Notes: generated from the sequence alone by a model not told the origin. Positions 56,699 to 64,000 are shown, numbered from the stretch's first letter. The stretch is DNA of 64,000 bases from Desulfurivibrio dismutans (GCF_029210385.1 NZ_JARGDQ010000008.1:1-64000), one strand, 5' to 3'. A program made the numbers and translations.

Positions 56699-56853
56699 AC
56701 CTGCGTCAGTTTCGTACAGGATACAACGTTGAAGTTCAGTTCGGTTAAAATCGAGCACAAACGCTGGTTGCCGCCTGACGTACATAAGCAGGCGACGGCC
56801 ATATTTCCCGGCGCACGCCATCAGCTTAGCATCTCTCCATGACGAGGAATTCC

Positions 56854-57252
56854 ATGCGAGATTTTATCCTTACTGCGGGAATGATTGAAAAAACCCGCAT
56901 GGCCATCGAAAACTCGCTGATCAGCGCCGGCGTACGCACCGCCCTGTTAATTGACGGGGCCGGCAACATTCTGTCCAACTGCGGCAAAGACTCATCCGAC
57001 ATCGACACCATCTCTCTGGCCGCCCTGGCGGCGGCCAATCTCGGCGCCACTTCCCAGATCGCCAAACTCATCGGCGAAGAAGACTTCTCCCTGCTGTTTC
57101 ACAAGGGAAAAACCGATAACATCCATTTCGGCCGCATCGGCAGTGAACTGATCCTGATCACCATCTTCCGGGAAGACGTTTCCCTGGGCCTGGTCCGTTG
57201 CCGGGTATCCGAGCTGGCTAAAACCATCACGGAGATCTTCGAGGATAATTAA
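56854..57252 (+). CDS. Roadblock/LC7 protein, MglB-like
   Basis: A 132-residue protein with the Roadblock/LC7 fold pattern: an N-terminal helix (TAGMIEKTRMAIENSLI), AGVRTALLIDGAGNILSNCG, then LAALAAANLGATSQIAKLIGEEDFSLLFHKG and ELILITIFREDVSLGLVR. MglB-type roadblock proteins are GTPase-activating partners of MglA. Here the MglA-type gene begins at its stop codon. The ATG at 56854 has GAGGA 5 bases upstream, preferred over 56839. It is first in the module operon. Confidence 0.85.
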   Translation: MRDFILTAGMIEKTRMAIENSLISAGVRTALLIDGAGNILSNCGKDSSDIDTISLAALAAANLGATSQIAKLIGEEDFSLLFHKGKTDNIHFGRIGSELILITIFREDVSLGLVRCRVSELAKTITEIFEDN

Positions 57253-57872
57253 TGGCCCTGATCGATCTCAGCAAAAGAGAAGTGCACTGCAAAATTGTTT
57301 ATTGCGGCCCGGGGCGTTGCGGAAAAACCACCAACCTCCTCAGCGTTTACGAGTCCATGGCCGAAAAAGACCGGGGCAAGATGCTCACCATCGACACCAA
57401 AGGTGACCGGACCCTCTTTTTCGACCTGCTGCCGCTCAACCTGGGTACCATCCGGGGGTTCAACATCCGCATCCAGCTATACACCGTTCCCGGTCAGACC
57501 ATGTACGAGGCCACCCGCAAGCTGGTGCTGAAGGGAGTTGACGGGCTGGTTTTTGTCGCCGACCCCCTGAAGGTACGGCGGCAAAGCAACATCGAAAGTC
57601 TGGATGACCTCCGCCGCCACTTACAGGACTACGGCTTGAAAATCGAAAAAATGCCCCTGGTCATTCAGTACAACAAAAGGGATCTGGCCGATACCCCCAC
57701 CCCAACCCTGACCATCGAAGAGCTTGAAAGCGACCTGAACGACACCCTCAAGGTCAAAACCTTTCCGGCTTCGGCCATTGAAGGCGTCGGGGTTTTTGAA
57801 ACCCTGCAGGAGATCAGCAAACAGACGGTCCGTTACGTGGCCAACAAGCACCTACTGGCCGACATGAAATAA
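57252..57872 (+). CDS. MglA-type Ras-like GTPase
   Basis: A 206-residue small GTPase. P-loop GPGRCGKTTNLLSVY near 20, LTIDTKGDRTLFFDLLP, switch region VPGQTMYEATRKLVLKGVDGLVFVAD, and the guanine-specificity motif QYNKRDL. Length and motifs match MglA, which sets cell polarity and motility direction in Myxococcus. It starts at the last base of the roadblock gene stop codon (TAATG), so translation is coupled. Targets are probably the scaffold and ATPase downstream (inference). Confidence 0.92.
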   Translation: MALIDLSKREVHCKIVYCGPGRCGKTTNLLSVYESMAEKDRGKMLTIDTKGDRTLFFDLLPLNLGTIRGFNIRIQLYTVPGQTMYEATRKLVLKGVDGLVFVADPLKVRRQSNIESLDDLRRHLQDYGLKIEKMPLVIQYNKRDLADTPTPTLTIEELESDLNDTLKVKTFPASAIEGVGVFETLQEISKQTVRYVANKHLLADMK

Positions 57873-57949
57873 GATAGGTTTGCAACGCCGGCAAATTGTT
57901 AAGTTAAGGTCAGGCGCTCCACATCCGTAAATCCCGTCAGGAGTTGAGT

Positions 57950-59356
57950 ATGACCCAGAACATGGTAGAGCAGGAACTCCACAGCGAAATCGACAACGCC
58001 ATCGACAATCTCTTTGGTCAATACACCGGCAACAAGGAAAAAAGCAAAGAACAACCAGCAGCTAAGCCGACGTCGTCCAGTGACGCCGGACCGGCCGGCG
58101 ACGACCCGTCCTTCCAGGAACCGCCGGCCAACCAGGAGATACTCCGACTCGAGGAGGCCCTGCTCTCCCTTGACTGGGAAATTTCATCCGCCAACATCGA
58201 AGAAACCGCCCGGGCCCTACAAGGTATTCAGGCCATCCTCAACCGGGAGCAGCAGGATGTCCTGGCGGAACTGCTGGCCGTGATGCAGGAGATCCTGGAG
58301 GCCATTGCCGACTCTCCCCGCAGCGTTCCCACCACCGTGCCTAAAACCATGCAGGACGGCATGGAAGCGATCAAGGCCGCCATGACCACCGAGGAAATGC
58401 CGATGGTCGAGCAGAACATGATCGCCCCGGCGATGGCCAAACTGCGGGCGGCCATCGCCCATGTACATGAAGCCGGTCGGCTGGAGCCAGCCGCAACCGA
58501 AACCAGCCCACCCCCGGAAACCCGGCCTCAACCGGCAACAACCAACCGGGCCGCAGACTTCATAAAAACCGACAACCAGGAAAAACCGGCGCCCCAGGCA
58601 TCATCCGCCGCCGATCAGGCCACCACCCCCGAAGTCGACCCACCGCTGGTCACCGCGATCAAAGCCCACCTGACGATTCTGGATAAATGCATCAACAAGC
58701 GAATCGTACCCATGGAAAAGCTGTTTGCCAAAAACCGGGGCTATGAAAAACTGCAAGCGGTCCACACCGATCTGCGCAAGCATCTCGAAAGGCAACAAAA
58801 GATGCTTGGCCAGGCCCTGACGGAAGCCCGGCGGGCAAGCGAAACGGTCGGCCCGGCGACACCTTCTTCGCGGCAATCATCCTCGGCCCCGGCGGTCTGC
58901 CCGTGGAAAAGCCTGGCGGTCACCACCCGCAACGACCGCCGGGTGGCCTTCGTTCCCGATGAGATCGCCTTTCAGGGAATTCCGGGGCGTAAAAAGTACA
59001 GCGGCCCCTTTTTCCCGCTGAAAAATTTAAAAAAGGGGCTGTTTGGCAAAGTCCGCCGCCAAGTCAGCGGCGACCTGACCGGACTGGCAGAAGACACGCT
59101 AAAAAACATGCTGCTGCCCCTGGCCCCGGATGAAGCCCCCAAGCGAGGCGACAAAAGCCCCATTGTCCTGCTGTTCAAGGAGAATGCCGGCGCCGTTTTC
59201 CGGGTGGAGAGCACCATCGAACTGCTGCAGGTTACCTCGGAATGGCAATGGTTCCCAACCAGCGATCCCGGCTCCATGGTCGCTGGAGAACTGAAAAGGG
59301 GGGAGGAAACCGTCACCGTCATCACCGCCCGCCCCGCCTCCCTGCCCGAGGGCTGA
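57950..59356 (+). CDS. Scaffold-like protein with possible CheW-like C-terminus
   Basis: I do not recognise this 468-residue soluble protein. An N-terminal amphipathic start, a disordered Pro/Ser/Ala linker, a helical domain (about 65-180, NQEILRLEEALLSLDWEIS...), a second linker, a coiled helix pair (about 235-300), and a C-terminal beta-rich domain (about 315-468). The last has RVAFVPDEIAFQGIPG, FFPLKNL, VLLFKENAGAVFRVESTIELLQV and VAGELKRGEETVTVITA, spaced like a divergent CheW domain (inference). AGGAG lies 6 bases before the ATG at 57950. Confidence 0.75.
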   Translation: MTQNMVEQELHSEIDNAIDNLFGQYTGNKEKSKEQPAAKPTSSSDAGPAGDDPSFQEPPANQEILRLEEALLSLDWEISSANIEETARALQGIQAILNREQQDVLAELLAVMQEILEAIADSPRSVPTTVPKTMQDGMEAIKAAMTTEEMPMVEQNMIAPAMAKLRAAIAHVHEAGRLEPAATETSPPPETRPQPATTNRAADFIKTDNQEKPAPQASSAADQATTPEVDPPLVTAIKAHLTILDKCINKRIVPMEKLFAKNRGYEKLQAVHTDLRKHLERQQKMLGQALTEARRASETVGPATPSSRQSSSAPAVCPWKSLAVTTRNDRRVAFVPDEIAFQGIPGRKKYSGPFFPLKNLKKGLFGKVRRQVSGDLTGLAEDTLKNMLLPLAPDEAPKRGDKSPIVLLFKENAGAVFRVESTIELLQVTSEWQWFPTSDPGSMVAGELKRGEETVTVITARPASLPEG

Positions 59357-59367
59357 TGACGGGCTAA

Positions 59368-61713
59368 ATGAAAATGAATTCACCCGCATCACTCCCCGAC
59401 AACCTGGAAGCCAAACTGGCCGAAGCGGATCTCTACGCCTCCCAGGGGCTGGTGGATGAAGCCCTGGAGATCTACCAATCGCTGCTGTTCGGGCTGGGCA
59501 ACGACCAGCCCATCCTCAGGGATCAGTTGGAAGAGCGGATGGTGGCCCTTCAAACCGGCGGTAACGGGCACCAAGCAAACGCGCAGTCGACCGCAGTCGG
59601 GGCCGAAACCAGCGAAGTTGATCGTTTTGAAAACGCCATGGGCCTGATGATGGCCGGTTTTTACGCCGAGGCGGACAGCGAGTTACGCCTGCTGCTGGGC
59701 AGCGCCTTCCGGCCGGTGGTGGTGCACAGTAAAATCGGCGAATGCTGTCTGCAGCTGGACCGTCCCTTCGAGGCCATCGAACACTTTGAAAAGGCCTGTA
59801 AACTCAAAGGCTCCATGCGCCAGAACGAGCGCCTCCATCTCCTGGATGCCCTGGCCATCACCTATGAGCGTACCGGCTCAATGGCGCCGGCGATCAAAAC
59901 CCTGGAACAGATCGTCGCCGTCGACCCCGTTTTTCGCAACGCCAAAAAAAGGCTGGCCTCCCTTTCCCAAACCGCCGGCAAATACGGCCGTTTCTTCAGC
60001 CTGATCCGCAATCAACTGCTCACCCCAGAGCAGTTTGAGGCCGCCAAAAAACAAGCAAAAAAGCACAACAACACGCTGGACAACATCCTGCTGGCTGAAT
60101 TCGGCATCAGCAAACAGCAGCTTGGCGCGGCTCTGAGCGAATATTACCGCTGCCCCTTTGTCGAATTCGATGACTCCCAAAAGCTCATCCCGCCCGCCTG
60201 CCTACGCGGCACCAAGGAAAGCTATTTCCGCAGCAACGTCTTTGTGCCCGTCAACGGCCCCGAAGGCAAGATCAGAGTGCTGACCGACGACCCCAACAAC
60301 CTGGGCAAACATGAAAATATCCGTTCGGTACTCTACGGCACCGAATACCAACTGGCAGTGGCCCTGAAGGAAGACATCAACCGCTATCTCGATGTTTTTT
60401 ACGATAAATCCGGCGTAGACGGCAAGCCGGAAGAGCAGGATATCTTTGCCAGAATCGAGCTGTTGGATGAACCGGGCGAAGACCCCGAAGAAGAGGAAGA
60501 GAGCCGCGGGGCCGCCGACGGGGTGGTGGTGCAGATGGCCAACAGAATCATCGAAGATGCGGTGACCAGACGGGCTTCAGATATCCATATCGAAAGCATG
60601 CCAGGCCGCAAGGGAACCGCCATCCGCTTCCGGATCGACGGCGCCTGCAGCCACTACAAGACCATCCCCCACAACTTCAAGCGGGCCCTGATTTCCCGGC
60701 TTAAAATCATCTCCAAACTCGATATCTCGGAAAAACGGCTGCCCCAGGACGGTAAAATTAACCTGAAAACCAGCCACGGCACCATCGAACTCCGGGTCGC
60801 CACCCTGCCCACCCACGGCGGCAACGAGGACGTGGTCCTGCGCATCCTGGCCGGCGGCGGGGCTGTCCCCCTGGACCGGATGAACCTTTCCCGCCGCAAT
60901 TACCAGGAACTCTGCCGCCTGCTGGAAATGCCCTATGGCTTGATCCTGGTGGTCGGCCCCACCGGCTCGGGCAAAACCACCACCCTGCACGGGGCCTTGA
61001 ATTACGTCAACCGGCCGGACAAAAAGGTCTGGACCATTGAGGATCCGGTGGAAATAGTCCAGGAGGGGGTGCGTCAGGTCCAGGTGGAAAGAAAAATCGG
61101 GCTGGATTTTGCCCGGGCCCTGCGCGCTTTTCTGCGGGCTGATCCCGACATCATCATGGTAGGGGAAACCCGGGACCAGGAGACGGCGGAAATCGTGATC
61201 GAAAGCGCTCTCACCGGTCACCTGGTGTTCTCCACCCTGCACACCAACAGCGCCCCGGAAACGGTCAGCCGGCTGCTGGGGATGAAAATCGATCCCTTCA
61301 ATTTCTCCGATTCACTGCTGGGTATTCTGGCCCAGCGCCTGGTACGCCGTCTTTGTACCCAATGCCGGGAGGCTTATCAGCCGGACCATGATGAGTGTGA
61401 GTTGCTGCTCGAGGAATACGGCTCCCATCCCCTCTACTCCCTGAGACGGCAAAAAGTCGCCGAAGCAACTCTTTACCGTCCGGTTGGCTGCGAAAAATGT
61501 GGAAAAAGCGGCTATGTCGGCCGGATCGCCCTGCATGAGCTGATGACCGTCACCGACGCCCTTAAAAATATGATCGTCCGCAACCGCCCTATCACCGAAA
61601 TTCGCGATGAAGGCCTGCGCGGCGGCATGCTGACCCTGAAGCAGGACGGCATCTGGAAGGTGTTGCAGGGAGTAACCGATTTGCGCCAGGTCCGAGCTGC
61701 CTGTATCAAGTAG
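59368..61713 (+). CDS. GspE/PilB-type ATPase with N-terminal TPR region
   Basis: A 781-residue protein. TPR-like helices (about 10-215) are followed by an MshEN-like domain (about 215-350, LLTPEQFEAAKKQAKKHNNTL...CPFVEFDD) and the T2SE/PilB ATPase (about 385-780). The ATPase has Walker A GPTGSGKTTT, Asp box TIEDPVEI, Walker B ADPDIIMVGETRD and His box TGHLVFSTLHTNSAPE. A zinc tetracysteine motif (CTQC...CEKCGKSGY) is complete. Such ATPases power pilus extension or type II secretion. No platform or pilin gene is adjacent. It follows the scaffold gene by 11 bases. Confidence 0.9.
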   Translation: MKMNSPASLPDNLEAKLAEADLYASQGLVDEALEIYQSLLFGLGNDQPILRDQLEERMVALQTGGNGHQANAQSTAVGAETSEVDRFENAMGLMMAGFYAEADSELRLLLGSAFRPVVVHSKIGECCLQLDRPFEAIEHFEKACKLKGSMRQNERLHLLDALAITYERTGSMAPAIKTLEQIVAVDPVFRNAKKRLASLSQTAGKYGRFFSLIRNQLLTPEQFEAAKKQAKKHNNTLDNILLAEFGISKQQLGAALSEYYRCPFVEFDDSQKLIPPACLRGTKESYFRSNVFVPVNGPEGKIRVLTDDPNNLGKHENIRSVLYGTEYQLAVALKEDINRYLDVFYDKSGVDGKPEEQDIFARIELLDEPGEDPEEEEESRGAADGVVVQMANRIIEDAVTRRASDIHIESMPGRKGTAIRFRIDGACSHYKTIPHNFKRALISRLKIISKLDISEKRLPQDGKINLKTSHGTIELRVATLPTHGGNEDVVLRILAGGGAVPLDRMNLSRRNYQELCRLLEMPYGLILVVGPTGSGKTTTLHGALNYVNRPDKKVWTIEDPVEIVQEGVRQVQVERKIGLDFARALRAFLRADPDIIMVGETRDQETAEIVIESALTGHLVFSTLHTNSAPETVSRLLGMKIDPFNFSDSLLGILAQRLVRRLCTQCREAYQPDHDECELLLEEYGSHPLYSLRRQKVAEATLYRPVGCEKCGKSGYVGRIALHELMTVTDALKNMIVRNRPITEIRDEGLRGGMLTLKQDGIWKVLQGVTDLRQVRAACIK

Positions 61714-61774
61714 AGAAAGACCAGGCAGGTAGCACATCTGCAACGGCAAGCTTATTATTCAGCACGAGGCGACC

Positions 61775-62902
61775 ATGAAAAGAGTTTTAATTGTCGATGA
61801 TGACCAGGGGTTCTTGCTCAGCCTGCAGGATATGTGCAGGGATCACGCCGACCAATTCGAAATCGTCACAGCCCAGAACGGCAAAGAGGCGCTGGAACGA
61901 CTAGCGGAAAAACCGGTACATCTACTGGTTACCGACCTGAAGATGCCGGAAATGGACGGTTTTGAACTGATTGGTCGGCTCAGTAAAAGAGGGGTCATTA
62001 TTCCGGTGATTGCCATGACCGCATACGGCACCCCGGAGATGGAAGATCGGTTGATGACCATGGGGGCCTTCCAGTACATTGAAAAACCCATCGACTTCAA
62101 CCTGCTGCTCAAGAAGATTCTCGATGGGCTGGCGGCGGGCGCCAAAGGGCGGGTCACCGGCATCTCCCTGCCCTCTTTCCTGCAACTGCTGGAGATGGAC
62201 CGTAAAACCTGCACCATCACGGTGAAATCCGGCCGACATTACGGCATGCTCTGTTTTGAAAACGGTGAGCTGCTCAATGCCTTTACCGAACCGCTGGAGG
62301 GCCTGGAGGCGGCATTTGAAATCATCAACTGGGACCAGGGCGAAATTGAGATTTACAACTTTTGTCGGAACCGCAAACGGACCATCAATGAGCCCTTGGG
62401 CTTCATTCTCCTGGAGGCCGCCCGCTTCAGCGACGAAAAAACGGAAAGGGAAGCGGTGGCCGCCGGCAAGAAACAACCAGAAGAGGACCTCGACCCACCT
62501 CCCGCCAATCTCCCGTCGGCCCCCGACCTGCCGGAGCCATCCGGGCTGAGTTCCATCGGCGCTGAAATGGAGACCTTGCTCAACGCCACTCCGGGTATCA
62601 ACCGGATGGTGCTGGTGACCAACGGTGGCTCCACCATTATTCGCAAAAACGTCGATAACCGTGAGTTCAGACCCTTTATCAGCTACGTGGTGATAACCGC
62701 CGACAAACTGCGCAAAGCCATGGGTTACCAGGAACTTCCGCGTCACATCATTCTCTCGCAGGACCGAGGCGGCAAGCTGCTGATCATCCCCGGCCCCGAG
62801 GTCACCCTGGGCCTGGAAGTGGACCCGGAGGTATCACCGGTAAAAATCTCGGCCGCCCTCGCTCCGGCCATCGCCGCCGCCAAAATCGGCCACACCGCCT
62901 AA
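61775..62902 (+). CDS. Response regulator: receiver, PATAN (DUF4388) and roadblock-like domains
   Basis: A 375-residue protein. The receiver (1-120) has VDDD, probable phospho-Asp in LVTDLKMPEMDG and Lys in IEKPID. A PATAN/DUF4388-type domain (about 125-210) has SLPSFLQLLEMDRKTCTITV and YGMLCFENGELLNAF. The C-terminal ~115 residues look roadblock-like (GINRMVLVTNGGSTIIRKNVD...VVITADKLRKAM). It could link a two-component signal to the GTPase module. GAGG lies upstream of the ATG. The upstream kinase is not in view. Confidence 0.82.
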   Translation: MKRVLIVDDDQGFLLSLQDMCRDHADQFEIVTAQNGKEALERLAEKPVHLLVTDLKMPEMDGFELIGRLSKRGVIIPVIAMTAYGTPEMEDRLMTMGAFQYIEKPIDFNLLLKKILDGLAAGAKGRVTGISLPSFLQLLEMDRKTCTITVKSGRHYGMLCFENGELLNAFTEPLEGLEAAFEIINWDQGEIEIYNFCRNRKRTINEPLGFILLEAARFSDEKTEREAVAAGKKQPEEDLDPPPANLPSAPDLPEPSGLSSIGAEMETLLNATPGINRMVLVTNGGSTIIRKNVDNREFRPFISYVVITADKLRKAMGYQELPRHIILSQDRGGKLLIIPGPEVTLGLEVDPEVSPVKISAALAPAIAAAKIGHTA

Positions 62903-62918
62903 CACAAGGAGAGCAGGC

Positions 62919-63560
62919 ATGGATGACTTACTGCAAGAAATCACAATGCTGCCGGGGGTTAAAGGAGCTTTCCTGGCCATGAGCGAACCTCAACTGGTGT
63001 TTTCCGATCTGCCCGACGGTTACCCGCCGGAGACCATGGCCCAGATCGAGGTCGCCATGGAGCGGATCTTTAAGATGAACGAGCCCTGCAAGCTCACCGT
63101 CAACTCCGTGGAGATGCTCTTTGACGATACCATGATGCTGGCCAAACAGGTCAGCGAAGGCTGCAACCTGGTAATCCTCGGTGAGCCGGACAGCAACTTC
63201 GCGCTGCTTAACATGACCAGCACCATGTTGCTGGGTGAGTTGCGCAGCCAGGCAGAAAGGATTCGCCGTGACCCGCCGGCGGCGGCCCCGGCCGCCACCG
63301 GCGATGGCGACAGCCGGGATTTTGAGGTGGTCAGGGAAAAAGACCCCCTGAAAAGTGCGCTGCCGGTGTTGGAGGAATCACTGGCCCGGGCCATCGGCCC
63401 CATTGCCGGCATGGTGACCAGGGAAACCGTTGAACAGTGGCTGCAGGAGGGATCCTGTCAAAAAGCGCGGTTCCCCGAACTGATCGATGCTTTTTGCCGG
63501 GAAATCGATGACCCGGCCATGGAAAAGGAGTTCCGGGCCAATGTCGCATCACTGCTGTAA
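62919..63560 (+). CDS. Roadblock-like protein with C-terminal DUF8082-type domain
   Basis: A 213-residue protein. The N-terminal ~110 residues have roadblock-like order (LPGVKGAFLAMSEPQLVFSDL, CKLTVNSVEMLFDDTMMLAK, CNLVILGEPDSNFALLNMT). A Pro/Ala linker follows, then a helical domain (LPVLEESLARAIGPIAGMVTRETVEQWLQEG...FPELIDAFCREI) like the small domain often fused to such proteins. It starts 16 bases after the receiver-PATAN gene. Probably a partner of the MglA-type GTPase or of the other roadblock proteins. Confidence 0.75.
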   Translation: MDDLLQEITMLPGVKGAFLAMSEPQLVFSDLPDGYPPETMAQIEVAMERIFKMNEPCKLTVNSVEMLFDDTMMLAKQVSEGCNLVILGEPDSNFALLNMTSTMLLGELRSQAERIRRDPPAAAPAATGDGDSRDFEVVREKDPLKSALPVLEESLARAIGPIAGMVTRETVEQWLQEGSCQKARFPELIDAFCREIDDPAMEKEFRANVASLL

Positions 63561-63669
63561 TCGACTTTTAGTGTAACCAAACAGAACCTTGGCCAAGGTC
63601 GCGCCCGGAAAACGGGCAGCCGGCGAACCGGGCAGGTAACTGCTTACCGTATCAGAAAAGGAGTAAAAG

Positions 63670-64000
63670 ATGGGCATTCGTATGAGATCCGTTTTGGTCA
63701 TGGGGGTTTTGGGTTTTCTGGCTATCGCCGTGATCGGTTTTGCCAGCTATCGTTTAAGTGTCAATAATGCCTTAAACGAAGCACAGATCAAGAGCGATAT
63801 CGTTTTGAACTACGCCATGGCCACCCGTTTGTACATGCAACGCGTCCAGCGTCCCCTGGCCCTGGCCCTGGTGGAGGAAGACCGTTTCTACCCCGAGCTG
63901 ATGTCCGGCTTCGTCTCCGCCCGGGGAACTTTTGAGATTTTCGAAGAACTCTATCCCGGCTACATCTTCAAACAGGCCACCCTGGATCCTCTCAACCCTT
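63670..64000 (+). CDS. Membrane sensor protein with DUF3365/Tll0287-like domain (partial)
   Basis: Only the first 110 residues are in the window. A membrane segment (about 7-27, VLVMGVLGFLAIAVIGFASY) precedes a periplasmic region with TRLYMQRVQRPLA, FYPELMSGFVSARGTFEIFEELYPGYIFKQATLDPLNP, which follows the Tll0287-like (DUF3365) heme/redox sensor pattern. The remainder is probably a chemoreceptor or kinase. AAGGAG lies 6 bases upstream of the ATG. It follows the roadblock module by 110 bases and could feed its signal. Confidence 0.75.
   Translation, partial: MGIRMRSVLVMGVLGFLAIAVIGFASYRLSVNNALNEAQIKSDIVLNYAMATRLYMQRVQRPLALALVEEDRFYPELMSGFVSARGTFEIFEELYPGYIFKQATLDPLNP

Follow-up and report, generated by a model that had tools for sequence, protein, structure and literature searches.

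A conserved mglA gene cassette with a TPR-armed PilB-type ATPase and a predicted CheA-like adaptor in Desulfurivibrio dismutans

Desulfurivibrio dismutans carries a conserved gene cassette in which an MglA GTPase and its roadblock partner (RB1) are encoded together with a predicted CheA-like adaptor (SCAF), a PilB-type ATPase that bears an N-terminal TPR arm, a PATAN response regulator and a roadblock-fold protein of 213 residues (D213). By analogy with known systems, the cassette is, with moderate confidence, a GTPase-controlled pilus-motor unit that would act in trans on a pilus platform encoded elsewhere in the genome, and we infer that control of the motor lies with the GTPase. The stretch of DNA that was analysed (64,000 nucleotides; hereafter the window) forms the first 64 kb of a 152-kb contig from a 2.84-Mb genome.

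The six genes lie 3' of cysS on the plus strand (Table 1) and are separated by intergenic gaps of -1 to 77 bases. For RB1, the start at 56854 matches the length of the relatives, many of which are 131–133 residues long, better than the start at 56839, where the ORF can also open. The SCAF gene probably begins at the ATG at 57950 rather than at the TTG at 57944, from which the SCAF residue numbers used below are counted. Promoter and terminator scans of the locus yielded matches at chance level only. All of the genes named in the original prediction of a co-directional run are present on the plus strand. The prediction also holds in placing the ATPase inside the GTPase gene run and away from pilus genes, as no pilin, platform, secretin or PilM gene is found on the 152-kb contig.

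Table 1. Genes of the cassette and the adjoining sensor gene in the window
Feature	Position	Strand	Basis
RB1, MglB-like roadblock protein, putative GAP	56854..57252	+	PF03259 42 bits
MglA GTPase	57252..57872	+	Invariant Arg53, Thr78, Gln82; start overlaps RB1 stop by one base
SCAF, 470-residue adaptor	57950..59356	+	Predicted model, Foldseek, VIA, P1 profile
TPR-MshEN-T2SSE ATPase	59368..61713	+	T2SSE 391 bits plus MshEN and TPR matches
Receiver-PATAN(DUF4388)-roadblock-like response regulator	61775..62902	+	Receiver 93.2 bits, DUF4388 61.9 bits
D213, 213-residue roadblock-fold protein with C-terminal helical domain	62919..63560	+	Predicted model, Foldseek
Tll0287-like haem-c sensor with HAMP, neighbour and not core	63670..64000, on to contig position 64545	+	

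The best solved relatives of the cassette MglA are M. xanthus MglA (E 5e-60) and Thermus MglA (E 5e-54). The alignment with M. xanthus MglA is free of gaps to beyond Gln82, and the three residues listed in Table 1 are identical in 21 sequences. Full-length similarity, together with these key residues, assigns the protein to the MglA GTPases. RB1 is assigned by its sequence matches to the MglB/roadblock family: it matches Robl_LC7, its closest solved relative is M. xanthus MglB (E 3e-21) and its gene adjoins mglA. Because RB1 scores 56 bits against the MglB equivalog NF052242, for which the threshold is 200 bits, it is described as MglB-like and not as a member of NF052242.

The ATPase consists of a TPR arm at approximately residues 1–200 (positions 59368–59967) and a catalytic part at residues 384–775. 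The Walker A, Asp box, Walker B and His box motifs and both CxxC pairs are conserved in 45 cassette ATPase orthologs. These motifs and the domain matches in Table 1 bear out the predicted TPR-GspE/PilB-type identity and, at the level of sequence, place the protein in the PilB/GspE secretion ATPase superfamily. The c-di-GMP motif of MshEN (RLG..L..G.I type repeats) is absent from the ortholog consensus, and the MshEN region scores 19 bits against NF053729 (threshold 38 bits). Against the PilB equivalog TIGR02538, the cassette ATPase scores 495 bits, below the cut-off of 675.65, and the canonical PilB of the genome (C30 copy) scores 760 bits. The tree places the cassette ATPases in one clade (support 0.98) that excludes four further PilB-type ATPases encoded in the genome. 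The GspE ORF that had been chosen for the motif table is antisense noise and was left out of this tree, and an ORF considered as the T2SS ATPase (C12) was rejected as a lytic transglycosylase.

SCAF, originally described as an unknown scaffold, is indeed encoded in the run but can be defined more specifically by its fold as a kinase-less CheA-like adaptor. A Pfam search with SCAF gave nothing above cut-off, and the relatives of SCAF and D213 likewise gave nothing useful. The predicted SCAF model (pLDDT 78.7) contains a P1/HPt-like bundle (residues 55–177), a helical hairpin (residues 229–300) and a CheW/P5-like β domain (residues 317–465); the corresponding structural elements of the model span residues 62–179, 233–300 and 323–460. 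Foldseek matches the β domain to CheW and CheA P5 (8c5v_E, E 6e-5, probability 1.00) and the helical bundle to CheA P1. In VIA, the β domain aligns to P5 with a Z of 9.4. The bundle reaches Z values of 12.9 with 3kyj_A (CheA3 P1) and 12.8 with 1i5n_D, and a sequence profile of the bundle was also run because helical bundles can approach a Z of ~13 incidentally. In a search space of 1364 ORFs plus 29 CheA/CheW proteins, the best matches of this P1 profile outside the family are to the HPt domains of two CheAs (E 1e-5 and 0.002). Profile alignment of the CheW-like part to CheA/CheW is not significant, and the CheW identity of this part is therefore assigned from the fold. No HATPase match indicative of a P4 kinase domain is obtained for SCAF, the model running from the hairpin to the β domain, and helix B (residues 82–98) contains no conserved histidine that could serve as the phospho-histidine. 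As modelled, SCAF resembles a CheA without its kinase domain, with the P1-hairpin-P5 order as in CheA.

The response regulator had been predicted to combine receiver, PATAN and roadblock domains. The receiver and PATAN domains are detected directly, both over their cut-offs, and the roadblock C-terminus is recognised only through the alignment, in which 11 of the 23 members match Robl_LC7 and the window protein itself does not. The predicted second roadblock protein is D213, which adopts a roadblock fold at approximately residues 1–117 in its predicted model (pLDDT 85.7) despite having no Pfam match. Foldseek relates D213 to MglB, LAMTOR and archaeal roadblocks with a probability of 1.00, and its C-terminal helical tail is conserved. 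In three genomes, D213 is fused to a PATAN protein that lacks the receiver, and the fused protein of one of these genomes aligns to D213 over nearly the full D213 length. As judged from this fusion, the PATAN regulator and D213 therefore probably act together.

The membrane sensor, which the original prediction had included in the unit, was rejected as a cassette member on gene orientation and occurrence. In the window genome, the haem-c sensor gene is followed, outside the window, by genes for a TPR-OmpA protein and then a convergent histidine kinase. The sensor, TPR-OmpA and histidine kinase genes adjoin the cassette in most relatives but lie convergently on the opposite strand in all 17 relatives that have them there. 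Close sensor homologs also occur in cassette-free genomes, and the sensor is absent from some cassette genomes. Because of this orientation and independent occurrence, the sensor is regarded not as a core component but as a frequent neighbour, which may supply the kinase input for the receiver.

Related genomes retain the gene order, the loss of which in relatives had been named as refuting the original prediction, with six genes in the order and a four-gene core that recurs across the phylum. SCAF is encoded in 27 of the 96 genomes of the order, and full-length TPR-ATPase orthologs are encoded in 28, of which 27 are the SCAF genomes (Fisher p ~5e-23 over the 96 genomes, with no correction for shared ancestry). 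All 24 order loci that were fetched have RB1, MglA, SCAF, ATPase, PATAN and D213 in this order on the same strand as far as the contigs extend, with PATAN and D213 forming a single gene in three. Since the arrangement is repeated in all relatives where the contig reaches, the gene order is, by sequence comparison, conserved far beyond chance. A phylum-wide SCAF profile matches 63 of 395 genomes. SCAF is followed by the TPR-ATPase in 21 of the phylum loci read, and RB1 and MglA lie directly upstream in 17 of these 21. Only MglA is found upstream in L143, and in L157, L163 and L166 the RB1-MglA pair lies a few kb from SCAF-ATPase with PATAN genes in between. Several phylum loci contain divergently oriented receiver and CheB-like genes, one of them with PATAN (L135). 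The search beyond the phylum was a single pattern-based scan of genome contigs, partly overlapping the assemblies of the order sample, and it located the same gene order in titled MAGs of Desulfobulbaceae, Desulfurivibrio and other delta-proteobacteria; the nearest titled relative of SCAF is a Desulfurivibrio MAG. Across 43 loci, the pairwise distances obtained for RB1, MglA, SCAF and the ATPase are correlated with one another (0.75 to 0.86), for which shared ancestry alone could be sufficient.

Variant loci differ in the output that follows the RB1-MglA-SCAF genes. In five of them, the fourth slot is occupied by a TPR-Ser/Thr kinase fusion, and the TPR part of these kinase proteins is homologous to the ATPase TPR arm by profile comparison (E 1e-10 to 3e-27). 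Other loci have a short SCAF followed by a histidine kinase, after which L148 also has a sigma-54 regulator. As this TPR region is shared between the ATPase and the Ser/Thr kinase fusions of the variant loci, it has the look of a docking arm whose outputs can be exchanged. In the phylum sample, all 21 loci with the ATPase have a detectable CheW-like half of SCAF, against 1 of the 16 loci that lack the ATPase; these loci are related and not independent. The variant outputs and the tracking of the ATPase by the CheW-like half suggest that the GTPase side of the system includes the P1-like half of SCAF and the TPR arm, and the ATPase side the CheW-like half. Tentatively, SCAF may be a kinase-less CheA that serves as a GTPase effector, its P1-like half reading MglA and its CheW-like half clamping the ATPase without phosphotransfer, while the P1-plus-TPR front end would drive other outputs in related loci. 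The other outputs meant here are the Ser/Thr kinase and the histidine kinase with the sigma-54 regulator.

Pilus components are encoded on other contigs of the genome, which carry two PilT-family ATPases, a stand-alone PilC, PilM and the canonical PilB. Three secretins, three platform proteins and 12 pilin-type signal matches are found in the genome, none of them on the cassette contig, and the several PilB-type ATPases are more numerous than the platform proteins. The cassette ATPase, if it is a pilus motor, would therefore act in trans beside the housekeeping PilB, in support of the predicted action on a distant pilus. The conserved neighbourhood likewise supports the original proposal of a compact signalling unit of GTPase and roadblock proteins that has an extension-type motor of its own. 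A PilM match is obtained in 94 of the 96 order genomes with or without the cassette, and pilus presence is thus no predictor of the cassette.

In the proposed mechanism, MglA-GTP would engage both the ATPase, through its TPR arm, and SCAF, whose P1-like half would face MglA and whose CheW-like half would face the ATPase, and RB1 would be the off switch for MglA. The ATPase would be positioned or licensed on the type IV pilus platform and would thus give the cell, in addition to the housekeeping PilB, a second extension motor that can be switched. This scheme is drawn by analogy with M. xanthus, in which PilB is placed through the binding of MglA-GTP to the TPR protein SgmX (PMC7519303, PMC11580455). 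The PATAN protein and D213 would constitute one regulatory pair that relays two-component signals to the motor. The PATAN regulator PixE reportedly binds PilB1 (PMC7690835 and its reference 61), and this cyanobacterial link agrees with a role of the PATAN-D213 pair as a second input. The score below the PilB equivalog cut-off (495 vs 676 bits), the genes between RB1-MglA and SCAF-ATPase in L157, L163 and L166, and the presence of PilM regardless of the cassette count against the pilus-motor reading.

The ATPase could instead drive another machine of the type IV filament family under MglA, such as a T2SS, an MSHA-like system or an unrecognised one, rather than type IVa pili. The numbers of secretins, platform proteins and PilB-type ATPases in the genome and the distance of the cassette ATPase from all genome ATPases compared in the tree are in its favour. 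We consider it unlikely, however, as the MglA and PATAN precedents are of type IVa pili and an ATPase match adjoins the platform genes of both the T2SS and the MSHA-like cluster. Attachment of SCAF to chemoreceptor arrays through its CheW-like half, which would link chemosensing to MglA without CheA-CheY phosphotransfer, appears quite improbable. The CheW-like fold and the bona fide CheW and CheA proteins encoded elsewhere in the genome are consistent with such attachment, but across the phylum the occurrence of the CheW-like half follows that of the ATPase, and SCAF has no detectable sequence-level similarity to CheW. We also doubt that the ATPase is regulatory and, at the platform, competes with the housekeeping PilB or caps it, which would make the cassette a brake and not a motor. 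Although a canonical PilB exists (760 bits) and PilB-type ATPases exceed platform proteins in number, a mere competitor would not need the catalytic motifs, all of which are kept in the 45 orthologs. That the cassette genes are functionally unrelated neighbours, for which their patchy presence in the order could be cited, is scarcely credible given their all-or-none co-occurrence, an order kept over many families, the gene fusion and the correlated gene trees.

The pilus-motor reading can be set against several known systems. By fold, SCAF resembles CheA/CheW in having a P1-like bundle, a helical hairpin and a P5/CheW-like barrel, arranged as in CheA, but the P4 kinase domain, a conserved phospho-histidine and a significant sequence match to CheW are missing. 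It is suggested that a Ras-like GTPase can take over chemotaxis adaptors that have lost kinase activity, and that the MglA systems of the phylum are built of modules whose outputs can be exchanged. The cassette ATPase has the MshEN-T2SSE architecture and catalytic motifs of the canonical PilB, from which it differs in its N-terminal TPR arm, degenerate c-di-GMP motif, separate clade and lack of pilus genes alongside. Cyanobacterial PATAN regulators (PixE, PixG and LsiR) also combine PATAN with a receiver and are linked to type IV pilus motors (PMC7690835), whereas the regulator described here has a receiver-PATAN-roadblock order, lies in an mglA operon and is paired with a second roadblock protein. 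In the accessible part of the mglA survey by Wuichet and Sogaard-Andersen 2014 (PMC4316618), group 1 and 5 mglA genes are occasionally near PATAN genes; unlike the present cassette, an adjacent pilus ATPase, a CheA-like adaptor and a TPR-fused output are not mentioned in that part. A literature search that covered mainly openly available papers retrieved no description of an ATPase-containing mglA cassette.

The closest parallel is the MglA-MglB-SgmX-PilB pathway of Myxococcus xanthus, which likewise combines MglA and its roadblock partner with a TPR module and an extension ATPase of the PilB type. In Myxococcus, the 14 TPRs are carried by a protein of their own, SgmX, for which direct contact with PilB has not been detected (PMC11580455). 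In the cassette, by contrast, ATPase and TPR module form one fused protein, and all components are encoded in one operon. The fusion of a TPR arm to a PilB-type ATPase in an mglA operon suggests that the polarity, TPR and motor functions act as one. The cassette hints at a more direct route for pilus steering than the multi-protein relay of Myxococcus and offers a small set of proteins for in vitro study of the MglA-to-PilB step. On our best reading, it would work like the MglA-SgmX-PilB system of Myxococcus but in a compact, new variant.

In three loci from relatives in the same order (L059, L062 and L064), a PATAN protein lacking the receiver is fused to D213, the roadblock-fold protein. At five loci from the phylum (L147, L151, L159, L164 and L171), the position of the TPR-ATPase, after RB1 (the MglB-like roadblock protein), MglA and the adaptor SCAF, is occupied by a TPR-Ser/Thr kinase protein. 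In L148, L149, L152, L155 and L160, RB1-MglA precedes a short SCAF, after which come a histidine kinase and another regulator. The kinase in L148 is a PAS histidine kinase, and its regulator is of the NtrC-type sigma-54 class. The long run of L157 also encodes a sensor-like protein and a cytochrome-like protein with CxxCH.

Stand-alone SCAF-like proteins are encoded in L167 and L168. Judged by eye, the gene that follows the one in L168 looks like one for a PilZ-domain protein. The 1349-aa protein of L169 has no Pfam match. Homologs of the Tll0287-like sensor adjoining the cassette are also common in genomes without the cassette.

MshE-type c-di-GMP motif matches lie upstream of the divided T2SSE ATPase, which is possibly a decayed or frameshifted gene.

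Coordinates of features in and beyond the cassette (L, locus from a relative; G000:C33, genome and contig)
Feature	Position	Description
Stand-alone SCAF-like protein	L168:8617-9654	~340 aa; match mainly to CheW-like half
Stand-alone SCAF-like protein	L167:9019-10023	~340 aa; match mainly to CheW-like half
1349-aa protein	L169:2009-6058	Immediately 3' of RB1-MglA; SCAF P1 profile match, E 2e-9
T2SSE ATPase	G000:C33:112734-113905	Match divided over two adjacent reading frames
Single long co-directional run	L157:2247-12290	RB1, MglA, several PATAN-like genes, SCAF, ATPase
Tll0287-like sensor	From 63670 in the window up to 64545 on the contig	Has a haem-c motif (CxxCH) plus HAMP; output domain absent
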